Shown one piece after another: positions 917 through 11,816 of a stretch of 64,000 nt of DNA. Below the pieces are notes generated by a model that saw only the letters and a program-made list of their open reading frames with translations, was not told the origin of the DNA and did not search any database. Position 1 is the stretch's first letter, and each line of letters begins with the position of its first letter. Position numbers and translations under genes: made by a program. Origin of the DNA: Methanocalculus alkaliphilus (GTDB lineage: Archaea; Halobacteriota; Methanomicrobia; Methanomicrobiales; Methanocorpusculaceae); assembly GCF_024170505.1 (NCBI RefSeq), contig NZ_JALJYG010000009.1, positions 1-64,000 of the forward strand. Reading direction: 5' to 3'.

Positions 917-1996
917 ATGACAGAATCAAAGAATTTACGACAGTTACTCATCAATCTCGGGTACGATCCTGTTGATGGTTTTAATGAAGGAAGAAAAATC
1001 GGCATTCTGATTCTACTTGCAGGTTTGCTCCTTCTTACGGCATGCATTGCAGTTGTCATGGGTGCATACAGCATCACAACAACCGATGTATACCGGGTAA
1101 TTCTCGTCCATCTCACATTCGGTGATGTCAGCACATTACCAAGGCTTCATAACACTATCGTCTGGGATATTCGTGTACCAAGGATCATTCTCGCGATCTC
1201 GGTCGGTGGTGCACTGGCCATTGCTGGTGCGGTATTCCAGGGCGTCTTTCGAAATCCGCTTGTTGAGCCCTATATCCTCGGGGTCTCATCAGGAGCGGCC
1301 TTTGGAGCGGCACTTGGGATTGTGTTCCCTCATATCTTCTTCTCGATCCAGATCTCTGCCTTCATCTTCGGGGCACTCGCAGTAACACTTGCCTATATGC
1401 TTGCCCGGGTACGGGGTGAGACCCCGATCGTCACCCTGATCCTTGCAGGTGTCATCATAGGTTCAATTTTCGCGGCATTTGTCTCACTTCTCAAATATAT
1501 CTCTGATGATACGGCACTCAGGGAGATCGTCTTCTGGCTGATGGGAGGGTTCTACTATGCAACGTGGAGTGATGTCTGGCTTCTGACACCGTTTGTCATC
1601 ATCTGCTTCATTATCCTCTGGGGGCTGGGCTGGAAACTGAACATTCTCTCGATGGGTGATGAGGAGGCTCGGACACTTGGTGTAAACCCTGAGCGCTACA
1701 AATTCATCGTTGTTGCCCTGGCAACAGCGGTGACCGCATTTGCGGTATCCCTTGTCGGAATCATCGCATGGGTCGGCCTGATGATGCCCCATGCGGCGAG
1801 GATGCTGCTGGGTCCTGATAACCGGTATGTCATACCGGCTGCACTGATGATGGGTGGAACGTACCTGATCATCTGTGATACGCTTGCACGAACACTGACG
1901 ACGGCCGAGATTCCTGTCGGGATTTTAGCTTCCATCCTTGGTGCTCCGTATCTCTGCTACCTGCTCCGCCATAAGGGGAGAGTTATCTTTGGGTGA
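917..1996 (+). CDS. FecCD/BtuC-family ABC transporter permease
   Basis: This 359-residue integral membrane protein has the usual length and pattern of the FecCD/BtuC family, with about ten membrane segments. Recognisable parts are RVPRIILA near residue 90, the GAVFQGVFRNPLVEPYILG region that contacts the ATPase, and the late GIIAWVGLMMPHAARML motif. Family members import ferric siderophores, haem, cobalamin or free metals in a two-permease, two-ATPase complex fed by a binding protein. The ATG is preceded by a purine-rich GGGGGA. The ATPase gene begins six bases after the stop, so the two are co-transcribed. The substrate cannot be read from the permease alone. Confidence 0.93.
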   Translation: MTESKNLRQLLINLGYDPVDGFNEGRKIGILILLAGLLLLTACIAVVMGAYSITTTDVYRVILVHLTFGDVSTLPRLHNTIVWDIRVPRIILAISVGGALAIAGAVFQGVFRNPLVEPYILGVSSGAAFGAALGIVFPHIFFSIQISAFIFGALAVTLAYMLARVRGETPIVTLILAGVIIGSIFAAFVSLLKYISDDTALREIVFWLMGGFYYATWSDVWLLTPFVIICFIILWGLGWKLNILSMGDEEARTLGVNPERYKFIVVALATAVTAFAVSLVGIIAWVGLMMPHAARMLLGPDNRYVIPAALMMGGTYLIICDTLARTLTTAEIPVGILASILGAPYLCYLLRHKGRVIFG

Positions 1997-2002
1997 TGAA
2001 CC

Positions 2003-2860
2003 ATGCTGGATGTAACAAATATCCATTTTAATTACGATGATTTCCCCGTTCTATCGGGTGTCTCGTTTTCAGTCGGAGAAGGAGAGCTCTGTGGTCTCTT
2101 TGGTCCAAACGGATCCGGAAAGACGACACTCTTCAAATGCTGCCTGCGCTTTCTCCAGGCACGAGATGGAACGGTGCGTATGTGCGGCGAGGATACATAT
2201 ACCCGTTCAATCGAGGAGATGGCACGGATGGTTGCCTATGTGCCACAGGAGCACAAGCCACCGTTCCCCTACCTTGTCCGTGAAGTTGTCCTGATGGGCA
2301 GGACACCTCATCTTGGAGGTTTCTTCGGGGTGAGGAGGCGTGACAAGGAGATCGCAATGGATGCCCTTGCAGAGCTTGGTATTACCGATCTTGCCGATCG
2401 TCCGTATAACCAGCTATCCGGAGGTCAGCGACAGATGGTCCTGATGGCCCGTGCACTCGCACAGCAGACACCGGTACTCTTCCTTGACGAGCCGACAAGT
2501 GCTCTTGATTTTCAAAATCAGATGCGTATCTGGAAGATTATGCGGGATATTGCGGAGGATGGGAAGACGATCCTTGCCTGCAGCCATGATCCCAACCATG
2601 TCGCCTGGTTCTGCGACCGGGTGGTTGTCGTAGGGGATGGGAAGATCGTGGCTGATGGAGCTCCAGCAGATGTCATCTCGGAAGATATTCTCTCACAGAT
2701 ATACCGTGACACCTGCTGTGTCCGGTCAGTCAATGGAGTGCAGATGGTGATGCCCCAGAGTGTCGCAGAACGATGCTGCTGCACAGGGCACCTGCATCAC
2801 GGAAATGGGCATGACCATCCCTTCCCACCAGACGGAATGAGAGTCGAAGACCAATCATAG
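2003..2860 (+). CDS. FepC/BtuD-family ABC ATPase with Cys/His-rich tail
   Basis: This is the ATP-hydrolysing subunit of the importer. It has Walker A GPNGSGKTT near residue 35, the LSGGQRQMVLMARAL signature near 140, Walker B VLFLDEPTSALD near 160 and a switch histidine in ACSHDPNH. The family is usually about 250-260 residues; this one has 285, and the surplus is a C-terminal tail containing CCC-GHLHHGNGHDH. Such a tail is not part of the family fold and could bind a transition metal, which would fit a metal-responsive gate. Its start ATG follows GGTGAT seven bases after the permease. No other oddity is seen. Confidence 0.92.
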   Translation: MLDVTNIHFNYDDFPVLSGVSFSVGEGELCGLFGPNGSGKTTLFKCCLRFLQARDGTVRMCGEDTYTRSIEEMARMVAYVPQEHKPPFPYLVREVVLMGRTPHLGGFFGVRRRDKEIAMDALAELGITDLADRPYNQLSGGQRQMVLMARALAQQTPVLFLDEPTSALDFQNQMRIWKIMRDIAEDGKTILACSHDPNHVAWFCDRVVVVGDGKIVADGAPADVISEDILSQIYRDTCCVRSVNGVQMVMPQSVAERCCCTGHLHHGNGHDHPFPPDGMRVEDQS

Positions 2861-2882
2861 AAACTGTGCACAGGAGACTACA

Positions 2883-3728
2883 ATGGAATATAATGAGATT
2901 GACTGGAATCAGATCTGGCAGAAGATGTATCAGGAAAACCTCAAATGCCGTGGAACAAATGATTGTGCCTCGATCTGGGTATCAAAAGAGAAGGCACAAT
3001 CCTTTATGAAGCAGTCCAGGGAGAACCCGGAGCGGATCAGGCACGTGATCGAAGGCCTCCCGATCCATTCGGGCTCCCGTGTGCTTGATATTGGAGCAGG
3101 TCCCGGGACGATGGCGGTGCCGATTGCAAAGGTTGCCGCTCACGTCACCGCTGTTGAGCCATCTCCCGGAATGACCTCGGTCCTTGCGGAGTATGCAGAG
3201 GAAGAAGGGGTCTCGAATATTCAGATAGTCCAAAAACGATGGGAGGATATTGATCTCTCATCTGATCTGGATGGACAGTATGATGTCGTCGTGGCATCGT
3301 ACTCGCTTGGGATGCCGGATATTAAAGAGGCAATTTCCGCGATGTACAGTGCCTCCTCTGGCTGGGTCTGCCTCTACTGGTTTGCCGATACGACAAGCTG
3401 GGAGCAGGCGATGATCGACCTCTGGCCGAAGCTTCATGGGAGGGAGTACCGATCCGGGCCAAAAGCGGATGTCATCTTTAATCTCCTCTACTCGATGGGT
3501 ATCTACCCCAATGTGGAGACTGCGGATATGGATCATGTCAGGAGATTCCCGGATATTGCAGCGGCTGTTGACGAGTTCCGGGATCAGTATGGCATACAGA
3601 CTCCGGAGCAGGAGGCGATCCTGCGGGAGTATCTGAAAGGAGTCCTTGTTCAGAAGGGGGATGAACTGATCCAGTCAGGGATGACGAAGCGGGTGAAGAT
3701 CTGGTGGAAGGTGAATGGATGCGTGTGA
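2883..3728 (+). CDS. class I SAM-dependent methyltransferase within the uptake cluster
   Basis: This 281-residue protein carries SAM-binding motif I VLDIGAGPGTMAVPIA near residue 66, an acidic end of strand 2 (AVEPSPGM) and a motif II-like YDVVVASYSLGM, so the fold is a class I methyltransferase. The acceptor is unknown. It sits between the importer core and the binding proteins, with a strong AGGAGA ribosome-binding site and a 10-bp overlap with the next gene, so it belongs to the operon. It may methylate or demethylate an imported chelator or corrinoid, or be a biosynthetic enzyme for a metal ligand; both are inferences from position. The N-terminal region has KCRGTNDCA with two cysteines. 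Confidence 0.85.
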   Translation: MEYNEIDWNQIWQKMYQENLKCRGTNDCASIWVSKEKAQSFMKQSRENPERIRHVIEGLPIHSGSRVLDIGAGPGTMAVPIAKVAAHVTAVEPSPGMTSVLAEYAEEEGVSNIQIVQKRWEDIDLSSDLDGQYDVVVASYSLGMPDIKEAISAMYSASSGWVCLYWFADTTSWEQAMIDLWPKLHGREYRSGPKADVIFNLLYSMGIYPNVETADMDHVRRFPDIAAAVDEFRDQYGIQTPEQEAILREYLKGVLVQKGDELIQSGMTKRVKIWWKVNGCV

Positions 3729-4954
3729 TTGGACCATATGCAGGATGGAGCTGTCTGCTCCTTGTCATCATCCTCCTGGTCCTCTCAGCAGGCTGCACTG
3801 ACCGGGGAGCGGAGCAGGGGAGTACGACAGTAGCCGGAGAAGATTACCGGACAGTCGTCGATTCCCGTGGCGTTGCGGTGCAGGTCCCGATGACTATCGA
3901 GCGTGTTGTCACGGTTTCAGATGGTCTCATAGAAGGGACGATGACATCACTTGGGGTTCAGGATACTATTGTTGGACTGGGCTCATCCTGCCTGCAGAGA
4001 AACTTTAATTATGAATTTCCAACAGTTCATGGCGAATCGTACTGGTATCGGGATGGTATGAACCCGGTGACATACCTGAACCGCTGGATGATGGATCTTC
4101 CTCTTGCCGCTCAGTCCGGAGCTGGAGCAAATTTTGAAACAATCGCTGCATTAGATCCCGATGTTATTATCCTACGCGTTGGATCATGTCCTATGCGTTC
4201 ACCGGACGATGAAGGAGTAATAATGACCATCCAGACGATAGAATCTCTTGGGTATCCACTCATTGTTATCTATGGTCCGCCTGCATTTGACAACCCGGAT
4301 CTCACAAAAGTATCTGAGGAAATAAAAATTATTGGAGAGGTCTTTGGGAAGGAAGCAGAAGCAGAAGTACTTGCAAACTATCTGGAATCTCAGACACATA
4401 TTGTTTATGATCGGACAAAAAATATTCCCGATGCTGAAAAACCAACTGTTCTTGCCTTTGGAGCGTCTCCAAATGCAAGGAATGCTGGTGGGGCAGGGAA
4501 TGTAAAAGGAACCAATACCTTTGAGTCATACTTTATTGAGGATATCGTACACGCAAAGAATGCATTCCAAAACCCGGGAAGTCCAACAATCTCTGCCGAA
4601 CAGTTACTTGCTCTTGATCCGGATGTGATTGTCCTGGGCACAGCAAACGGGTATCACCCACCGGAAGAGTTGTACTCTGCTCCGTATTATCAGAATGTGG
4701 CAGAGCTTCAGGCAGTGAAAAACCAGCGTGTGTATGCACTTCCCTGGACACCCTGTAATTGTGCAAAACGTCTTGAGTATCCGATTGATATAATGGTATT
4801 TGCAAAAGCGGCATATCCTGATCTATTTGAGGATATCATTCTTTCAGAATGGCTGCTCGACTTCTACAAGAATGTGTATGGCGTGGATCATGATACGGCA
4901 ATTGCGCTTCGTTCAGCCCAGTGGATGGACTGGTGTGTAGAGGATGGAATATAG
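3719..4954 (+). CDS. ABC substrate-binding lipoprotein, paralogue 1
   Basis: This binding protein of the iron/corrinoid type should be anchored outside the membrane through the cysteine of LSAGC. The ATG at 3719 gives a clean signal peptide; a GTG 15 bases upstream would add a charged leader and is less likely. Two alpha/beta lobes are visible, each beginning with an LDPDVI-type strand (near residues 145 and 305), joined by the long helix typical of this class. Cysteines cluster in SSCLQRNF, GSCPMRS and PWTPCNCAKR. The first gene of a tandem of three, its start overlaps the methyltransferase stop. It ends with an NVYGVDHDTAIAL motif shared by all three paralogues, which is unusual for generic siderophore receptors. 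Confidence 0.9.
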   Translation: MRVIGPYAGWSCLLLVIILLVLSAGCTDRGAEQGSTTVAGEDYRTVVDSRGVAVQVPMTIERVVTVSDGLIEGTMTSLGVQDTIVGLGSSCLQRNFNYEFPTVHGESYWYRDGMNPVTYLNRWMMDLPLAAQSGAGANFETIAALDPDVIILRVGSCPMRSPDDEGVIMTIQTIESLGYPLIVIYGPPAFDNPDLTKVSEEIKIIGEVFGKEAEAEVLANYLESQTHIVYDRTKNIPDAEKPTVLAFGASPNARNAGGAGNVKGTNTFESYFIEDIVHAKNAFQNPGSPTISAEQLLALDPDVIVLGTANGYHPPEELYSAPYYQNVAELQAVKNQRVYALPWTPCNCAKRLEYPIDIMVFAKAAYPDLFEDIILSEWLLDFYKNVYGVDHDTAIALRSAQWMDWCVEDGI

Positions 4955-5177
4955 TATGCGGACATGGCATGTTGAGCAAAAGCGAAAAATTGGTGGGATT
5001 TATGAGAAATAAATTATTACTACCAGGATCGATCATTCTGATCGCTCTCCTCCTCTCCACAGGATGTGTCGGATCAACCGATGGCGACCAGTCACAGCAA
5101 TCTTCGGGTGCAGAGTATCGTACTGTTGTCGATTCCCGTGGCGTTGCGGTACAGGTCCCGGTGAATATCGAGCGTGT
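4853..5177 (+). repeat. direct repeat copy A spanning a gene junction
   Basis: About 325 bases covering the end of binding protein 1, the intergenic spacer and the start of binding protein 2 recur at 6130-6454 with only about seven differences by eye. Weaker similarity continues upstream to about 4718. The offset between copies is exactly 1277 bases, about one gene length, as expected from unequal crossing-over or recent gene conversion. Confidence 0.9.
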
Positions 5178-6231
5178 TGTTGGTGTCTCTGATGGTTTCA
5201 TAGAAGGGACAATGACGGTTTTTGGCGTTCAGGATACAATAGTGGGTGTAGGCTCAAAATGTCTTCAGAGGGGGTATGATTATACCTTTCCAACAGTTTC
5301 AGGCGATTCATACGAATATACAGGTGGTATGAACCCGGTTACTAATCTTAACCCATGGATCAAAGACCTCCCTCTTGTTGCAGAATGGGGAGGTGCCATG
5401 AATTATGAGACACTCGTCTCCCTCGAACCAGATATCGTTATTCTCCGAGTAGGAAGCGGAAGCCTGTTGAGTAAGGATGATGAGAGAACACAAAAGACCA
5501 TTGATGTCATCGAGTCCCTTGATGTCCCCTTGATTGTCCTTTATAGTCCAAACTGCTATGATTATTCTGAACTGAGGCGTATTTCCGATGAAATACTAAT
5601 CCTGGGGAAGGTTTTTGGTAAGGATGCAGAAGCCGTTCAGCTTGCACGCTACCTTGAGTCCCAGGTGGATCTCGTGCAGAAAAGGACAGCTGGAATCCCC
5701 GAATCGGAGCGTCCGACAGCACTGATCTTCGGACTTTCCCCCAAGCATCGTTCAGAAGGTGCATCGGGCACAGCTCATGGGCTGAAGACAACTGACTCCT
5801 ATATGCTCGAAGGAATAGTGAATGCAAAGAATGCATTCCAATCTGAAACCGGTATATTTCAGATATTGAGTACGGAACAGGTTCTGGCTCTTGATCCCGA
5901 TATCATCCTCCTCTGCACTGCATGGGGGTATCATCCGCCAAAGGAGTTGTACACAGCTCCATACTACCTGAATCTTCAGGAATTAACAGCTGTGAAAAAC
6001 CAGCGTGTGTATGCACTTCCCTGGACGCCCTGTAATAGCGATAAGCGTCTTGAGTATCCAATCGACGTGATGGTCATGGCAAAAGCGGCATATCCTGAGC
6101 TCTTTGAGGACATTGTTCTTTCAGAATGGCTGCTTGACTTCTACAAGAATGTGTATGGCGTGGATCATGATACAGCAATTGCGCTTCGTTCAGCCCAGTG
6201 GATGGACTGGTGTGTAGAGGATGGAATATAG
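5002..6231 (+). CDS. ABC substrate-binding lipoprotein, paralogue 2
   Basis: This is the second tandem receptor, 409 residues from the ATG at 5002, which follows GGTGGG and begins a proper lipoprotein signal ending LLSTGC. Upstream in-frame ATGs would precede the signal peptide with polar sequence. The architecture matches its neighbours, but several binding-region residues differ: it has SKCLQRGYDY, YEYTGGMNPVTNL and PWTPCNSDKR, so one of the paired cysteines seen in paralogues 1 and 3 is replaced by serine. This suggests a different or relaxed ligand preference. Its 5' end is nearly identical to that of paralogue 3 and its 3' end to that of paralogue 1, showing recent exchange. Confidence 0.9.
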   Translation: MRNKLLLPGSIILIALLLSTGCVGSTDGDQSQQSSGAEYRTVVDSRGVAVQVPVNIERVVGVSDGFIEGTMTVFGVQDTIVGVGSKCLQRGYDYTFPTVSGDSYEYTGGMNPVTNLNPWIKDLPLVAEWGGAMNYETLVSLEPDIVILRVGSGSLLSKDDERTQKTIDVIESLDVPLIVLYSPNCYDYSELRRISDEILILGKVFGKDAEAVQLARYLESQVDLVQKRTAGIPESERPTALIFGLSPKHRSEGASGTAHGLKTTDSYMLEGIVNAKNAFQSETGIFQILSTEQVLALDPDIILLCTAWGYHPPKELYTAPYYLNLQELTAVKNQRVYALPWTPCNSDKRLEYPIDVMVMAKAAYPELFEDIVLSEWLLDFYKNVYGVDHDTAIALRSAQWMDWCVEDGI

Positions 6232-6454
6232 TATGCGGACATGGCATGTTGGACAAAAGCGAAAAATTGGTGCGATTTATGAGAAATAAATTATTACTAT
6301 CAGGATCGATCATTCTGATCGCCCTCCTCCTCTCCACAGGATGTGTCGGATCAACCGATGGCGACCAGTCACAGCAATCTTCGGGTGCAGAGTATCGTAC
6401 TGTTGTCGATTCCCGTGGCGTTGCGGTACAGGTCCCGGTGAATATCGAGCGTGT
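6130..6454 (+). repeat. direct repeat copy B spanning a gene junction
   Basis: This is the second copy of the junction repeat, covering the end of binding protein 2 and the start of binding protein 3. The differences from copy A include single substitutions at the ribosome-binding site (GGTGGG becomes GGTGCG), which may weaken translation of paralogue 3. Confidence 0.9.
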
Positions 6455-7514
6455 CGTTACTGTTTCTGATGGCATGATCGAGGGGACAATGACCTATATC
6501 GATAAGCAGGATCTGATCGTCGGGCTTGGATCATCCTGTCTTCAACGGAACTTCAACTATGAATTTCCGACGATCCATGGGGAGACATACTGGTATCGGG
6601 ATGGTATGAATCCTGTTACATACCTCAACCGCTGGATCATGGATCTCCCGCTCGTTGCCCAGTCGGGATCTGCACTCAACTATGAGTCTCTTGTCTCGCT
6701 TGACCCTGATGTTGTGATCATGCGGATCGGTTCCTGCACAGTCAGGCATATTGGTGACGAATCGGTGATAAAGACGATCAGCACGATAGAGTCCCTTGGT
6801 ATTCCTCTTGTCGTCATCTATGGACCGCCTGCATTTGATGATCCCGATCTCTCAAAGATGTCCGATGAAATAAGAATCATCGGGCAGGTCTTTGGAGAAG
6901 AGATGAAGGCTATGGAGATTGCTGATTACCTTGAGGAACAGGTCAGCTTCATTTATGAAAGGACGAAGGATATTCCAATGGAAGAACGGCCGACCGTCCT
7001 TGTTCTTGGACTGTCGTCACGGGCACGGGATGCCGGGGGCTCCGGGCAGGTCTTTGGGCTTGACACCATCGAGTCCTACTTCATCGAGGAGATCGCTCAT
7101 GCAAGGAACGCTTATGCCGAACCAGGATACTTCAGGACGGTCTCTGCAGAGCAGCTTCTGAGTATCAACCCCGATGTAATTATCCTCTGTACAGCCAACG
7201 GCTACCACCCGCCGGAAGAGCTGTACTCCGCTCCGTATTACCAAAACCTGCAGGAACTTGATGCAGTGAAGAACAGAAATGTCGTCGCATGGCCGTGGAC
7301 ACCCTGCAACTGTGCAAAACGCCTGGAGTATCCGATTGATGTGATGGTTATCGCAAAAGCGGCATATCCGGAGTTATTTGCGGACATCGAACTCTCAGAA
7401 TGGCTTCTTGATTTCTACAAGAATGTCTATGGGGTGGATCATCAAACGGCGATTGGACTTCGCTCTACCCAGTGGATGGACTGGACTGTTGAGGAGTGCC
7501 CTGGCTGCGGGTGA
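6279..7514 (+). CDS. ABC substrate-binding lipoprotein, paralogue 3
   Basis: The third tandem receptor has 411 residues from the ATG at 6279, with the same lipoprotein signal (LLSTGC) as paralogue 2. Its body resembles paralogue 1 more closely: SSCLQRNFNYEF, YWYRDGMNPVTYL and PWTPCNCAKR are shared. It differs at the extreme C-terminus, which ends EECPGCG, adding two cysteines. Three receptors plus a truncated fourth serve a single permease/ATPase pair, so the system probably captures several related ligands. The gene closes the operon; a G-rich/C-rich pair (GGGGAGGG and ACCCCC) lies in the following 100 bases and could form a weak terminator. Confidence 0.9.
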   Translation: MRNKLLLSGSIILIALLLSTGCVGSTDGDQSQQSSGAEYRTVVDSRGVAVQVPVNIERVVTVSDGMIEGTMTYIDKQDLIVGLGSSCLQRNFNYEFPTIHGETYWYRDGMNPVTYLNRWIMDLPLVAQSGSALNYESLVSLDPDVVIMRIGSCTVRHIGDESVIKTISTIESLGIPLVVIYGPPAFDDPDLSKMSDEIRIIGQVFGEEMKAMEIADYLEEQVSFIYERTKDIPMEERPTVLVLGLSSRARDAGGSGQVFGLDTIESYFIEEIAHARNAYAEPGYFRTVSAEQLLSINPDVIILCTANGYHPPEELYSAPYYQNLQELDAVKNRNVVAWPWTPCNCAKRLEYPIDVMVIAKAAYPELFADIELSEWLLDFYKNVYGVDHQTAIGLRSTQWMDWTVEECPGCG

Positions 7515-7616: not shown

Positions 7617-8837
7617 ATGAGATCCTTTTTTTCGATTCTGTGTATTATTGTCATTCTCCTCTTCAGTGGAACCACTGTTGTCTCAGGTTTGGAAGAAAAC
7701 CGGGATCAGCAATCCCTCTCCACTGAGGAAGGTGATGAAAGGATACAAGCGTCCTTTTTTTACAGCCTGACCTGCGCAAACTGCAACCGTGTGCGACCAC
7801 TAATTGAAGAGCTTGAACAGGTATATCCCTGTATTGACGTGAATTATCGTGAGATCGCCCATAGCAGGACGAACCGTGATTATTTCTTTGCCATCTCTGA
7901 AAGCTACCAGATAGAAAATCCGCTGATACCTCTCTTTGTGATCGGGGGAGCGGTGATGGTCGGAGAAGAACAGACGAACTCAGGTCTCCGGAGACTTCTG
8001 GAAGCAGCAGAGACTGAACCGGTGACCAAAGGGGATACCGACAGAAGAGGTCTTGTACTCCAGGTTATCAATTCGTTTCACGACGGGACGGCTGTGTGCA
8101 GGGGGGATGACCTGCCATCCCCCGCCCCTGAGGCCATTTTCCCTGGTGGCAAACCTTCTCACGCCACACAGGTGACAGTGGCGGCTGTTCTCATCGGAGC
8201 AGCAGTTGACAGTATCAATCCCTGTGCATTTGCGGTCCTCTTCGTCCTTCTTGCATATCTCTCCAGTCTCAATGACAGAAGACGGATGCTTCAGGTTGGA
8301 TTGGTCTACATCGGGACGGTATTTATGGTTTATCTTCTTGCAGGGCTTGCTCTCCTTGGCTTTGTCCATTCCCTTGACATATCGAGTCCTTTTTTCTCGC
8401 TTGCCGCAATCATCGTCATACTCGCAGGTCTGATCCAGATTGTCGAGGTTCTCAGGCAGAACCATGCCTTCTCACTTTCGATCCCCGAACAGTTCAAAGA
8501 GAGAATCGGAAGCTATATCAGGCGTGCCACGATCCCCTCTGCACTTCTTCTCGGTGCGCTTGTCAGCATCGTTGAACTGCCCTGCACCGGAGGGATATAT
8601 CTGGCCATACTTGCTCTTCTTGCCGACCGGATGACCATGATGGAAGGGCTGCCATATCTCATTCTGTACAACCTCATCTTCGTGCTCCCCCTTCTGATCG
8701 TCCTTGCCATTGTATACCGGGGGTCAGCACCTGGGCAGATGGATACATGGAGACAAAAGTACAATCGCCCTGTCCGGCTCGGCATGGGAGTATGTATGAT
8801 CGTGATCGGGATGATGATGCTTGCCGGTATTGTGTAG
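7617..8837 (+). CDS. thioredoxin-like domain fused to CcdA/DsbD-type membrane protein
   Basis: From the ATG at 7617 this protein starts with a signal/anchor helix and then a thioredoxin-like domain with a CANC redox motif near residue 55, in an extracytoplasmic position. After residue 180 come about six membrane segments of the CcdA/DsbD family with the conserved pairs VDSINPCAFAV and VELPCTGGIYLA. Such proteins carry electrons across the membrane to keep outside thiols reduced. Fusion of both halves means it could relay electrons to the outside without a partner. It follows the uptake operon by about 100 bases, so a role in keeping the cysteine-rich receptors reduced is possible but inferred. 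An upstream GTG (7578) would add 13 polar residues. Confidence 0.85.
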   Translation: MRSFFSILCIIVILLFSGTTVVSGLEENRDQQSLSTEEGDERIQASFFYSLTCANCNRVRPLIEELEQVYPCIDVNYREIAHSRTNRDYFFAISESYQIENPLIPLFVIGGAVMVGEEQTNSGLRRLLEAAETEPVTKGDTDRRGLVLQVINSFHDGTAVCRGDDLPSPAPEAIFPGGKPSHATQVTVAAVLIGAAVDSINPCAFAVLFVLLAYLSSLNDRRRMLQVGLVYIGTVFMVYLLAGLALLGFVHSLDISSPFFSLAAIIVILAGLIQIVEVLRQNHAFSLSIPEQFKERIGSYIRRATIPSALLLGALVSIVELPCTGGIYLAILALLADRMTMMEGLPYLILYNLIFVLPLLIVLAIVYRGSAPGQMDTWRQKYNRPVRLGMGVCMIVIGMMMLAGIV

Positions 8838-8925: not shown

Positions 8926-10593
8926 CTATTCCAGAAGCTGTTCGATCAAATCTCCACGTCTAAACGTTGCTGCCAACTGCTGGAGTGAAACTTCCCGTGT
9001 TCCGTACAGCTTGTGTAGTGCAGAATCAATAGCTACTATAGCACGTTCAAGATAGTCCTCTCCTCTTTCCCTGATGAGCATCTCAGCTTTATTTAGATGT
9101 ACATGACCAAGATCTTCAAGGACCAGTTTCATATCCTCAAGAAGGTAGTGTCCCATCTGCATTGCAAGAAAACAGGATGCATATCTTATAAATGGTGGAT
9201 CATTATCTTTTGGTCTTTTACGACGATTCTCAGTTATTCGATATATGAGGGTTGCAATGATAACCTGAGCTCCGGTCAGATCTTCTGAGAAAATATGGTC
9301 ATAAAGCTTCCCAAAATGTTCTCGGGAGAAGAATTTTGCCTGATGTGGCTTCTGCCTCCAGACCGATAAAACCGCTTCTGCTGCAACTCCTGAGGTGATA
9401 TCTACGGGTTTAATCGTTGAATCAGTTCTTTTTCTCCGATATGAATAACCGAGTTGTTCGATATCGACCTCAAGGCGTTTCTGGAGTTCGTCATTTGCCC
9501 GGAGATCCTTGAGATCAACAGGATTCTGGCTGTTTGTTGCATAGGTTATCTGCCGAATGAGATGATCATTGTCACGAGGAAGTTGGTAGAGGCGAAGAAG
9601 TATATATGCATCTGAGGGTGGCTCGAACATATGGTCTTTGAGTGTTTTGTATATTGTCATACAGGTTTGTCCACCATTGATTATCTGAAGATTTTCAACA
9701 TTCACCTGATAATCCCCTCGCTGTAAAGCGTTATAATCAAACTTCTCACAAACGAGTGTTATACCATTGTTATAGAAATAGAAATTATTACTTTCCTTAG
9801 ATAAAAGAGTGTCACGAATCGCTTCATTTACCCGGTTACCTTGCAGTCCAAGATAGCGGCGGATATTTCTGTCGAGTAATCGTTCTCCATGTCTATGCAT
9901 TAGAGAATATATTCCTTTAATATGTATTCTTCCAATTAAAACACGGCTGAAGTTGAAATCCTCGATTATTGCTGAACCTGTGAGATGAAGGGTGTCATTG
10001 ATGGGTTTTGTTGATTGAAGAATTGAAACCAGACGATCATGGTTGAGATACTCCCATGTAACTTGATTGTTAAAACCTGCCTGTTTGATCAGAATGTCTG
10101 CTGCTTCATTCCAGTGCAGGCCGTTATTGCATAGTACTGCTCTGACCTGAGGTATATATCCATCACGAATCAGAGAGCGAACCTCTTCTACACGGGAGAG
10201 AAGACGGGGATTAATTGGCTGAAGTTGGGCTTGTGGATCGAAGAGAACCTGTATGGCACGAATCAATGAGCTAACTCCACTCTCAGGAAATGTTGAGTTC
10301 CCATCAAGATTCTTATGTTTATACTTTCCCTGAAAAAGAGTTACTACGAATTCCCCATCGAACTCTTCTGAAATCTGCATGGCATCAACTCCGAAATCCT
10401 GTGTGCCTTCAGTGAGACAGTCAAATGCCTCATCAGGGGAAATGTCCAGTAGAGTTTGTACAGAGAGGTGGACAAAGGCAAGGGATTTTAATCGAGTAGG
10501 ATCGGTGATCGATAATTCATCCTGTGCTCGTTGCGCAATAGATGCAGAAACTGCAGAAAGCCTCTGATCAATAATTGATGCGTTAATATTCAT
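8926..10593 (-). CDS. AIPR-family abortive infection phage-resistance protein
   Basis: The product (555 residues) matches the AIPR family, named for plasmid-borne abortive infection proteins. The hallmark is the central NNGITLVCEKFD...LQIINGGQTCMTIYK region near residues 265-320, preceded by an N-terminal part resembling restriction-type nuclease folds (GVDAMQIS, VTLFQGKYK), in which D and QGK could be catalytic. The ATG at 10593 has GGAGAG upstream; an ATG 21 bases further up has none. The gene is richer in A+T than the core genes around it, consistent with transfer. It lies downstream of the adenine methylase in the same direction, so the two may form a defence module. The mechanism is not established by sequence. 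Confidence 0.8.
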   Translation of the reverse strand: MNINASIIDQRLSAVSASIAQRAQDELSITDPTRLKSLAFVHLSVQTLLDISPDEAFDCLTEGTQDFGVDAMQISEEFDGEFVVTLFQGKYKHKNLDGNSTFPESGVSSLIRAIQVLFDPQAQLQPINPRLLSRVEEVRSLIRDGYIPQVRAVLCNNGLHWNEAADILIKQAGFNNQVTWEYLNHDRLVSILQSTKPINDTLHLTGSAIIEDFNFSRVLIGRIHIKGIYSLMHRHGERLLDRNIRRYLGLQGNRVNEAIRDTLLSKESNNFYFYNNGITLVCEKFDYNALQRGDYQVNVENLQIINGGQTCMTIYKTLKDHMFEPPSDAYILLRLYQLPRDNDHLIRQITYATNSQNPVDLKDLRANDELQKRLEVDIEQLGYSYRRKRTDSTIKPVDITSGVAAEAVLSVWRQKPHQAKFFSREHFGKLYDHIFSEDLTGAQVIIATLIYRITENRRKRPKDNDPPFIRYASCFLAMQMGHYLLEDMKLVLEDLGHVHLNKAEMLIRERGEDYLERAIVAIDSALHKLYGTREVSLQQLAATFRRGDLIEQLLE

Positions 10594-10620
10594 CCTATTC
10601 TCTCCGATATACATTGGATG

Positions 10621-10868: not shown

Positions 10869-11816
10869 TTACCTCTCCGATGACCGGTAATTCGTGATGA
10901 TCAGCTCGTTGATCGCCCCTCTTCCCGCACCATTTGCATTGATCATCCGTGTTGCAGGCACCCGTTCGATGGTGAAGCCGGAGTAGAGATCATCAAAGAA
11001 GCAGTCATCGGGATCGGTGTTTTTGGGATCCGAGTTGGAGAGCATGACTTTTGCTCCCTTCCGGTCAAGCTCCCGGAAGAATTCGGCGAGCCGGATCTGG
11101 TCCGCTTCGTCAAACCCGTCCTTTGCATATGAGGTGAAGACGGCGGTCTTCTCGTTGAGGGGGCGGTAGGGGGGATCGAAATAGACAAACGTCTTCTCAT
11201 CCACGACATCCCGGCAGCCCGTGAAGTCCCCCTGCCTGATGGTCGTCCCCGCAAGGAGTTTTGCGACATTGCGCAGGTTCTCTGCATTCAGGATATCGGG
11301 GTTTTTGTACTTTCCAAAGGGAACATTGAACCCGCCACTCCGGTTCACCCGGAAGAGTCCGTTGAAACAGGTCCGGTTCAGGAAGATGATCCAGGCCGCA
11401 CGGGTGATCCAGTCCGGGTTGTATCCTTCAAACGATATTTCGGAGAGCTGCCTGTTGAAGCTGTCACGGATCTCGTAATAGAAGGCTTTCCTCTCCTCCT
11501 CGTCACACTGGTAATACGCCGATTTCAGGTGATCCAGTCTCTCGATCAGCGCCTCTGTATCCTTCTGGATGACGGAATAACAGAGGGTGAGCTCGCAGTT
11601 GACGTCAGAGAGATACGACTCTTGTATAGTGTGATGCTCATGCAGGGCAAAGAAGAGCGCCCCTCCCCCGATGAACGGCTCGACATATCTGGTGATCTCC
11701 CCGCTGGCAATCCCTGGCGGGAGGCGGGAGATGAGGTCGGGCAGAAGCTGCGTTTTGCCGCCCGCCCATTTGAGGAACGGGTGGGCCTGTCCGGGGGTTC
11801 GTTTTGGTCGTGGCAT
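10869..11816 (-). CDS. dam: Dam-type DNA adenine-N6 methyltransferase (D12 class)
   Basis: This 315-residue protein has the alpha-group amino-methyltransferase layout: SAM motif FLKWAGGKTQLLPDL near residue 13, a second SAM segment YVEPFIGGGALFFAL near 48, and the catalytic DPPYRPL near 195. This class methylates adenine, very often in GATC, with SAM as donor. No restriction endonuclease gene lies beside it; the downstream neighbour is the AIPR gene, so it is either an orphan epigenetic methylase or the self-marking half of a defence pair. The group II intron remnant lies in its upstream region. Target specificity was not derived from the sequence. Confidence 0.9.
   Translation of the reverse strand: MPRPKRTPGQAHPFLKWAGGKTQLLPDLISRLPPGIASGEITRYVEPFIGGGALFFALHEHHTIQESYLSDVNCELTLCYSVIQKDTEALIERLDHLKSAYYQCDEEERKAFYYEIRDSFNRQLSEISFEGYNPDWITRAAWIIFLNRTCFNGLFRVNRSGGFNVPFGKYKNPDILNAENLRNVAKLLAGTTIRQGDFTGCRDVVDEKTFVYFDPPYRPLNEKTAVFTSYAKDGFDEADQIRLAEFFRELDRKGAKVMLSNSDPKNTDPDDCFFDDLYSGFTIERVPATRMINANGAGRGAINELIITNYRSSER

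Follow-up and report, generated by a model that had tools for sequence, protein, structure and literature searches.

A FecBCD-class importer operon with a linked methyltransferase and tandem receptors in Methanocalculus alkaliphilus, a candidate route for nickel complexes

One permease-ATPase core, a class I methyltransferase and three tandem lipoprotein receptors are encoded together in Methanocalculus alkaliphilus, and the balance of evidence favours an ABC importer of the FecBCD class for nickel in organic complexes. The gene content, linkage and receptor types, the nickel-gene neighbourhoods of relatives and the disruption of a fourth receptor were observed directly. Methanogens depend heavily on nickel, and the gene family, flanked in relatives by regulator and chaperone genes, is a concrete and testable candidate for methanogen nickel supply. 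The linked methyltransferase suggests a small-molecule nickel chelator in anaerobes, which can be sought, and the receptor types provide a handle on ligand diversity.

The window analysed is the whole stretch of 64,000 nucleotides at positions 1-64000 of contig C9 in the 2.09-Mb genome (G000), and the operon is encoded on its plus strand. A FecCD-type permease (917-1996; PF01032, E 4.7e-94; closest NCBIfam model BtuC-like, under cut-off) is followed after 6 nt by a FecE-type ATPase (2003-2860; PF00005) with a Cys/His-rich C-terminal tail, RCCCTGHLHHGNGHDHP, and after another 22 nt by a class I SAM-dependent methyltransferase of an operon-linked clade (2883-3728; Methyltransf_25, E 2.9e-13), which overlaps receptor 1 (3719-4954). 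Receptor 2 (5002-6231) and receptor 3 (6279-7514) follow at intervals of 47 nt each, and all three receptors match PF01497 and carry a lipobox cysteine. The gene order given in a preliminary description of this DNA, a core, a methyltransferase and three lipid-anchored receptors with overlaps or short gaps, was confirmed, all genes being present and collinear. The permease, ATPase and Peripla_BP_2 receptors (PF01032, PF00005 and PF01497) score over the Pfam gathering thresholds, the split fourth receptor excepted. Next in order is a thioredoxin-like and DsbD/ArsG-type membrane protein (7617-8837, plus strand), identified by domain and profile matches and by neighbourhoods in relatives, which probably belongs to the operon; its counterpart adjoins the operon also in G002, G045 and L128, and in G004 sits beside a paralogous methyltransferase. 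A divergent promoter region recognised from the sequence (650-916) contains an inverted repeat, CATACTAAGCATAGTATG, at 877-894, just 5' of the permease gene, which was dropped as a candidate operator because the perfect repeat is not conserved in relatives. Beside the operon, the minus strand encodes an AIPR/AbiU-like protein and a D12-class adenine DNA methyltransferase (8926-10614 and 10869-11816), which are possibly defence genes.

An AlphaFold2 model of receptor 3 (pLDDT 91.8) has the two-lobed fold of solved FecBCD-class receptors. It was matched to 4ovk (TM 0.67/0.82) and nickel-bound CeuE (TM 0.60/0.79), and closely similar scores were obtained for 4ovk, the molybdate receptor HI1472 (second-best), TM0189, the iron-binding YiuA and the nickel-binding CeuE; HmuT and HtsA were matched as well. 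The preliminary description had named a match to a well-known ferric-siderophore protein as an outcome that would tell against it, and the predicted fold singles out no such protein. As modelled, the receptor is a FecBCD-class member without one best ligand analogue, and the matches of its fold to proteins for iron, haem and molybdate count against an assignment to nickel.

Sequence patterns and trees agree with the earlier suggestion that the receptors make up a definable subfamily, and the two motifs offered for it were found in part. Receptors 1 and 3 carry an exact WTPCNC and receptor 2 has WTPCNS; the shared C-terminal motif occurs exactly, as NVYGVDHDTAIAL, in receptors 1 and 2 and as NVYGVDHQTAIGL in receptor 3. 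The exact C-terminal motif was rejected as a subfamily marker because receptors 1 and 2 owe their identity at this end to recent homogenisation: a near-identical junction tract running from the end of receptor 1 to the start of receptor 2 (4715-5177, plus strand) has its copy at 5992-6454, and exact repeats of 35, 38, 77, 26 and 131 bp recur with a period of 1277. Between their conserved ends, windows of 80 bases show about 50-70% DNA identity among receptors 1-3. The wider receptor family retains looser patterns around W-x-P-x-N and YGVD.

Trees were compared for the centres and C-termini of the receptors. In the centre tree, receptor 3 (type A, the orthologous main receptor, with a C-terminal CPxCG) clusters with the G002, G046 and G056 main receptors, to which it is 75-80% identical, receptor 2 (type B) groups with a receptor of Methanoculleus sp. 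FWC-SCC1, receptor 1 (a type A/C mosaic) changes position between samplings, and the divergent fourth (D) type is represented by relatives in a starred clade of 14 rows. Receptors 1 and 2 are sisters (95) in the C-terminus tree. The receptor array is therefore a mosaic, in which the types, common to several genera, are older than the genus and the ends have been homogenised. Three Cys-bearing sites (GSSC, GSC and PCNC) mark the main type, and the replacement of Cys by Trp, Phe or Tyr at the last of them in the divergent type (WTP[FY]NW) suggests that the two types have different ligands. Capture of several chelate variants, as proposed earlier, fits the retention of receptor types across genera. 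The expectation of a single receptor did not hold as a rule in this family: at least two receptors occur at 16 of 29 archaeal loci, and the window operon has three intact receptors and one disrupted receptor for one permease-ATPase core.

The disrupted gene, a type D receptor, lies on the minus strand at 74-649 as its 5' part only, the reading frame stopping shortly after it enters foreign sequence. It had been described as divergent and truncated; it is divergent and its frame is short, but it is an intact gene type split by a mobile element, and its 3' part is found on contig C13 (G000:C13:81-767). The end of the insertion element (1-94) has the terminal repeat AGGACTTACGCA at 83-94 on the minus strand, next to an 8-bp target-site duplication at 95-102 (ATCAGGAT in gene sense), and at the beginning of contig C13 an identical copy of the duplication adjoins the terminal repeat, so that both flanks of the split gene bear the two elements. 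When the empty site was reconstructed with one copy of ATCAGGAT, an uninterrupted ORF of 406 aa was obtained; in the congener G002 the intact divergent receptor has the same length, and the two are 88% identical. The terminal repeats, the duplication and the intact empty-site frame show that the fourth receptor was split by a multicopy insertion element; the C9/C13 pairing is deduced from duplication, frame and homology rather than from reads. The terminal repeat has 13 genomic copies, near contig ends, and the identical 94 nt of the element end were found at six contig ends; the element breaks the assembly at many places. The element with AGGACTTACGCA was also noted in L041 (1-93) and at the ends of contigs C1, C6, C9, C12, C15, C19, C22, C23, C27 and C28.

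Consistent linkage of the methyltransferase to the receptors had been set beforehand as a point on which the preliminary description could fail, and it was borne out in the neighbourhoods of relatives. Across the 61 genomes searched for homologues, every homologue at least 55% identical follows FecCD-FecE, and each is followed by a family receptor, except in G007, where the contig ends inside the gene. An independent locus search with the receptor alignment as query found a methyltransferase at 25 of 29 archaeal loci with the core, 23 being members of this family and 2 of another, and at 6 of 18 bacterial loci, all six from Desulfobacterota; among 40 unrelated FecCD operons taken as the control, 6 carry a member of this methyltransferase family no more than about 9 kb away. 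On the tree, 8 changes account for the linked label vs 24.3 in shuffles, and the window methyltransferase, which contains the SAM-binding motif VLDIGAGPG, belongs to a starred clade whose 21 rows are all linked, a count biased upwards because many rows were fetched through the receptor. Its AlphaFold2 model (pLDDT 92.4) resembles small-molecule N-, S- and O-methyltransferases; as a means of naming the substrate the fold search was set aside, since it returned generic class I enzymes only (histamine, TmtA/GtmA and BioC) and was not diagnostic. Generic methyltransferase families alone were matched in Pfam, with no match to nicotianamine synthase (NAS).

A methyltransferase-like gene is also present inside a nikA-nikB-type operon of the same genome. 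On contig C1 (L045, 4532-10286), NikA-like, methyltransferase-like, NikB, NikC, NikD and NikE-like genes form one operon; this importer belongs to a second class, unrelated to the first, and has a methyltransferase embedded in it. NikABC-type operons in G043 and G060 contain both a methyltransferase and CooC. That two unrelated importer classes are associated with the same accessory genes argues most strongly for a place of the methyltransferase in metal-complex handling. Two further arrangements were observed: in G043 (L197, L198), methyltransferase paralogues alternate with receptors, CooC, a NikABC-type importer and pilin-like genes, and in L084 (1718-11993) and L085 an HgdC-like protein of 1358 aa, a TrmO-FmdE fusion and a different methyltransferase lie beside a family receptor operon.

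These data also bear on an alternative to which we give a minor but real share of probability, namely a metal importer whose methyltransferase is unrelated or protein-modifying and merely co-transcribed. It would account for the location of distant paralogues (below 50% identity) mostly elsewhere in the genomes, and for systems of Bacteroidota, Helicobacter and Acidobacteriota that are without the enzyme. However, the linkage spans methanogen orders and Desulfobacterota, the gene was duplicated together with receptors (in G058 a methyltransferase-receptor pair stands in tandem), other families (MT2, O-methyltransferase) stand in for it, and the NikABC-type operons, one of them in this genome, include methyltransferases too.

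The metal itself is suggested by genes around the receptor family in independent lineages. NikR adjoins FecCD-FecE-receptor in all three Acidobacteriota loci, NikR and CbiMNQ-type transporter genes flank a Methanocellaceae locus in which CooC is also present, and genes for a [NiFe]-hydrogenase large subunit and maturation protease adjoin all six Cyclobacteriaceae loci, which belong to related species and therefore probably represent one event. A CooC-like ATPase, with CooC (3kje) as its best solved match and a CxC motif in 16 of 16 aligned sequences, occurs at 14 of 54 family loci; this type was found in 5 of the 61 relatives' genomes, four of which carry the receptor family, and at high similarity none was found in the window's own genome. 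In the Methanothrix group, NikA-like importers share operons with the family, their NikA-like proteins scoring under the curated nickel cut-off. Any nickel marker was present at 27 of 54 family loci, and at 1 of the 40 FecCD loci that served as controls and belong to the same archaeal order (Fisher p about 1.5e-7, which is indicative only and overstates certainty because the queries came from family loci and the species are related), and at 18 of 35 family loci vs 1 of 40 controls when archaea only were counted. The NikR and hydrogenase evidence comes mostly from branches without the methyltransferase. None of the nickel markers adjoins the window's own operon, NikR lying 45 kb away, so the argument for nickel is drawn from relatives. 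A NikR homologue is encoded on the same contig at 53132-53554, minus strand.

Among the ligands first listed for this transporter class, the neighbourhoods favour a metal, namely nickel, over iron, haem and corrinoids. A ferric-siderophore or haem importer with receptors for different iron chelates is unlikely: the PF01497 and FecCD families, the fold matches to YiuA, HmuT and HtsA and a weak NCBIfam similarity to ferrichrome and ferrioxamine receptors are in its favour, but no curated iron model in NCBIfam reached its cut-off, the neighbourhoods read gave no support, and the excess of nickel genes over controls in those neighbourhoods runs against it. Slightly less likely again is uptake of a metal tetrapyrrole or corrinoid (a cobamide or F430-type nickel tetrapyrrole) whose ring would be the methyltransferase substrate. 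The permease and ATPase are closest, under cut-off, to corrinoid-type models (BtuC, PRK09536), the methyltransferase weakly resembles CpaM, BchM and CbiT, and a linked O-methyltransferase is similar to BchU; yet the class I similarities are generic and under cut-off, the neighbouring CooC, NikR and [NiFe]-hydrogenase genes are in keeping with nickel supply rather than corrinoid salvage, and no cobamide genes were noticed beside the family loci read. A molybdate/tungstate importer of the MolBCA kind has in its favour HI1472, the second-best fold match, and the FmdE-domain genes that adjoin some loci, but is very improbable: those genes are minority neighbours with none at the window operon, no molybdenum-cofactor genes were noticed, and the Cys triad of the main receptors would be unsuited to an oxyanion site.

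For import of nickel in organic complexes, the following mechanism is proposed. Diverged lipid-anchored receptors would each catch different nickel complexes outside the cell, and all would serve one shared permease-ATPase core. The methyltransferase would act on a small-molecule chelator, either making it or modifying the imported complex, and such modification would free nickel or let the chelator be recycled; in relatives, the adjoining CooC-like ATPase would hand nickel to enzyme assembly. Nickel as the substrate in this organism, its chelate form and the role of the methyltransferase are what we infer here. A broader and more tentative proposal, which we consider plausible but hold at less than even, is that methanogens and sulfate reducers share methyltransferase-coupled nickelophore import, each diverged receptor type having its own nickel complex, all of them serving one core, and the methyltransferase making or remodelling the chelator. 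If true, it would constitute a high-affinity nickel route not previously recognised, beside NikMNQO. No description of a methyltransferase-linked importer in methanogens, whether for nickel or of the FecBCD class, was found in the literature; the combination of methyltransferase and receptor types is undescribed in the literature searched, and FecBCD nickel import itself is already known.

Among known systems, the Helicobacter pylori importer NiuBDE carries Ni, Co and Bi and has two receptors, NiuB1 and NiuB2 (PMC5140060). It resembles the window system as a FecBCD-class nickel importer with more than one receptor per permease-ATPase core and in receptor fold (4ino/4ls3), but NiuB is not an orthologue by sequence (4ino against the receptor, E 9e-6 by sequence and 2.9e-9 by profile, behind other class members), no methyltransferase has been described there, and the window receptors are in tandem with Cys-rich motifs. 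By analogy, we infer that the window system operates as FecBCD nickel importers do, NiuBDE among them, without being orthologous to NiuBDE by receptor sequence. BtuFCD, for vitamin B12, is similar in its permease and ATPase models, but the window scores are far under the cut-offs (BtuC 279.7 vs 461) and its receptors are weakly BtuF-like (18.8-28.2 vs 234). In opine metallophore systems of the CntABCDF type, a SAM-using biosynthetic enzyme is likewise encoded beside a nickel-capable importer, but the importers there are of the Opp/Nik type, whereas the window core is of the FecCD type and its enzyme, by Pfam, is no homologue of nicotianamine synthase. In Desulfobacteraceae, the gene order FecCD-FecE-MT-receptor-MT2 of L133 is immediately followed by a gene for a TonB-dependent receptor of the PCPU motif type (NF049947), homologues of which are present in L127 and L130; this receptor would represent an outer-membrane stage, which is required only in Gram-negatives. 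The L133 gene (12067-13533, Desulfobacter latus) ends at a stop after which reading resumes downstream, and its product is possibly a selenoprotein. NikMNQO (ECF) is a nickel importer of methanogens (PMC10617489, PMC2667541); the proposed role, nickel supply to methanogens, is the same, its machinery is unrelated and without lipoprotein receptors, and one family locus (L157) adjoins an ECF Ni/Co importer.
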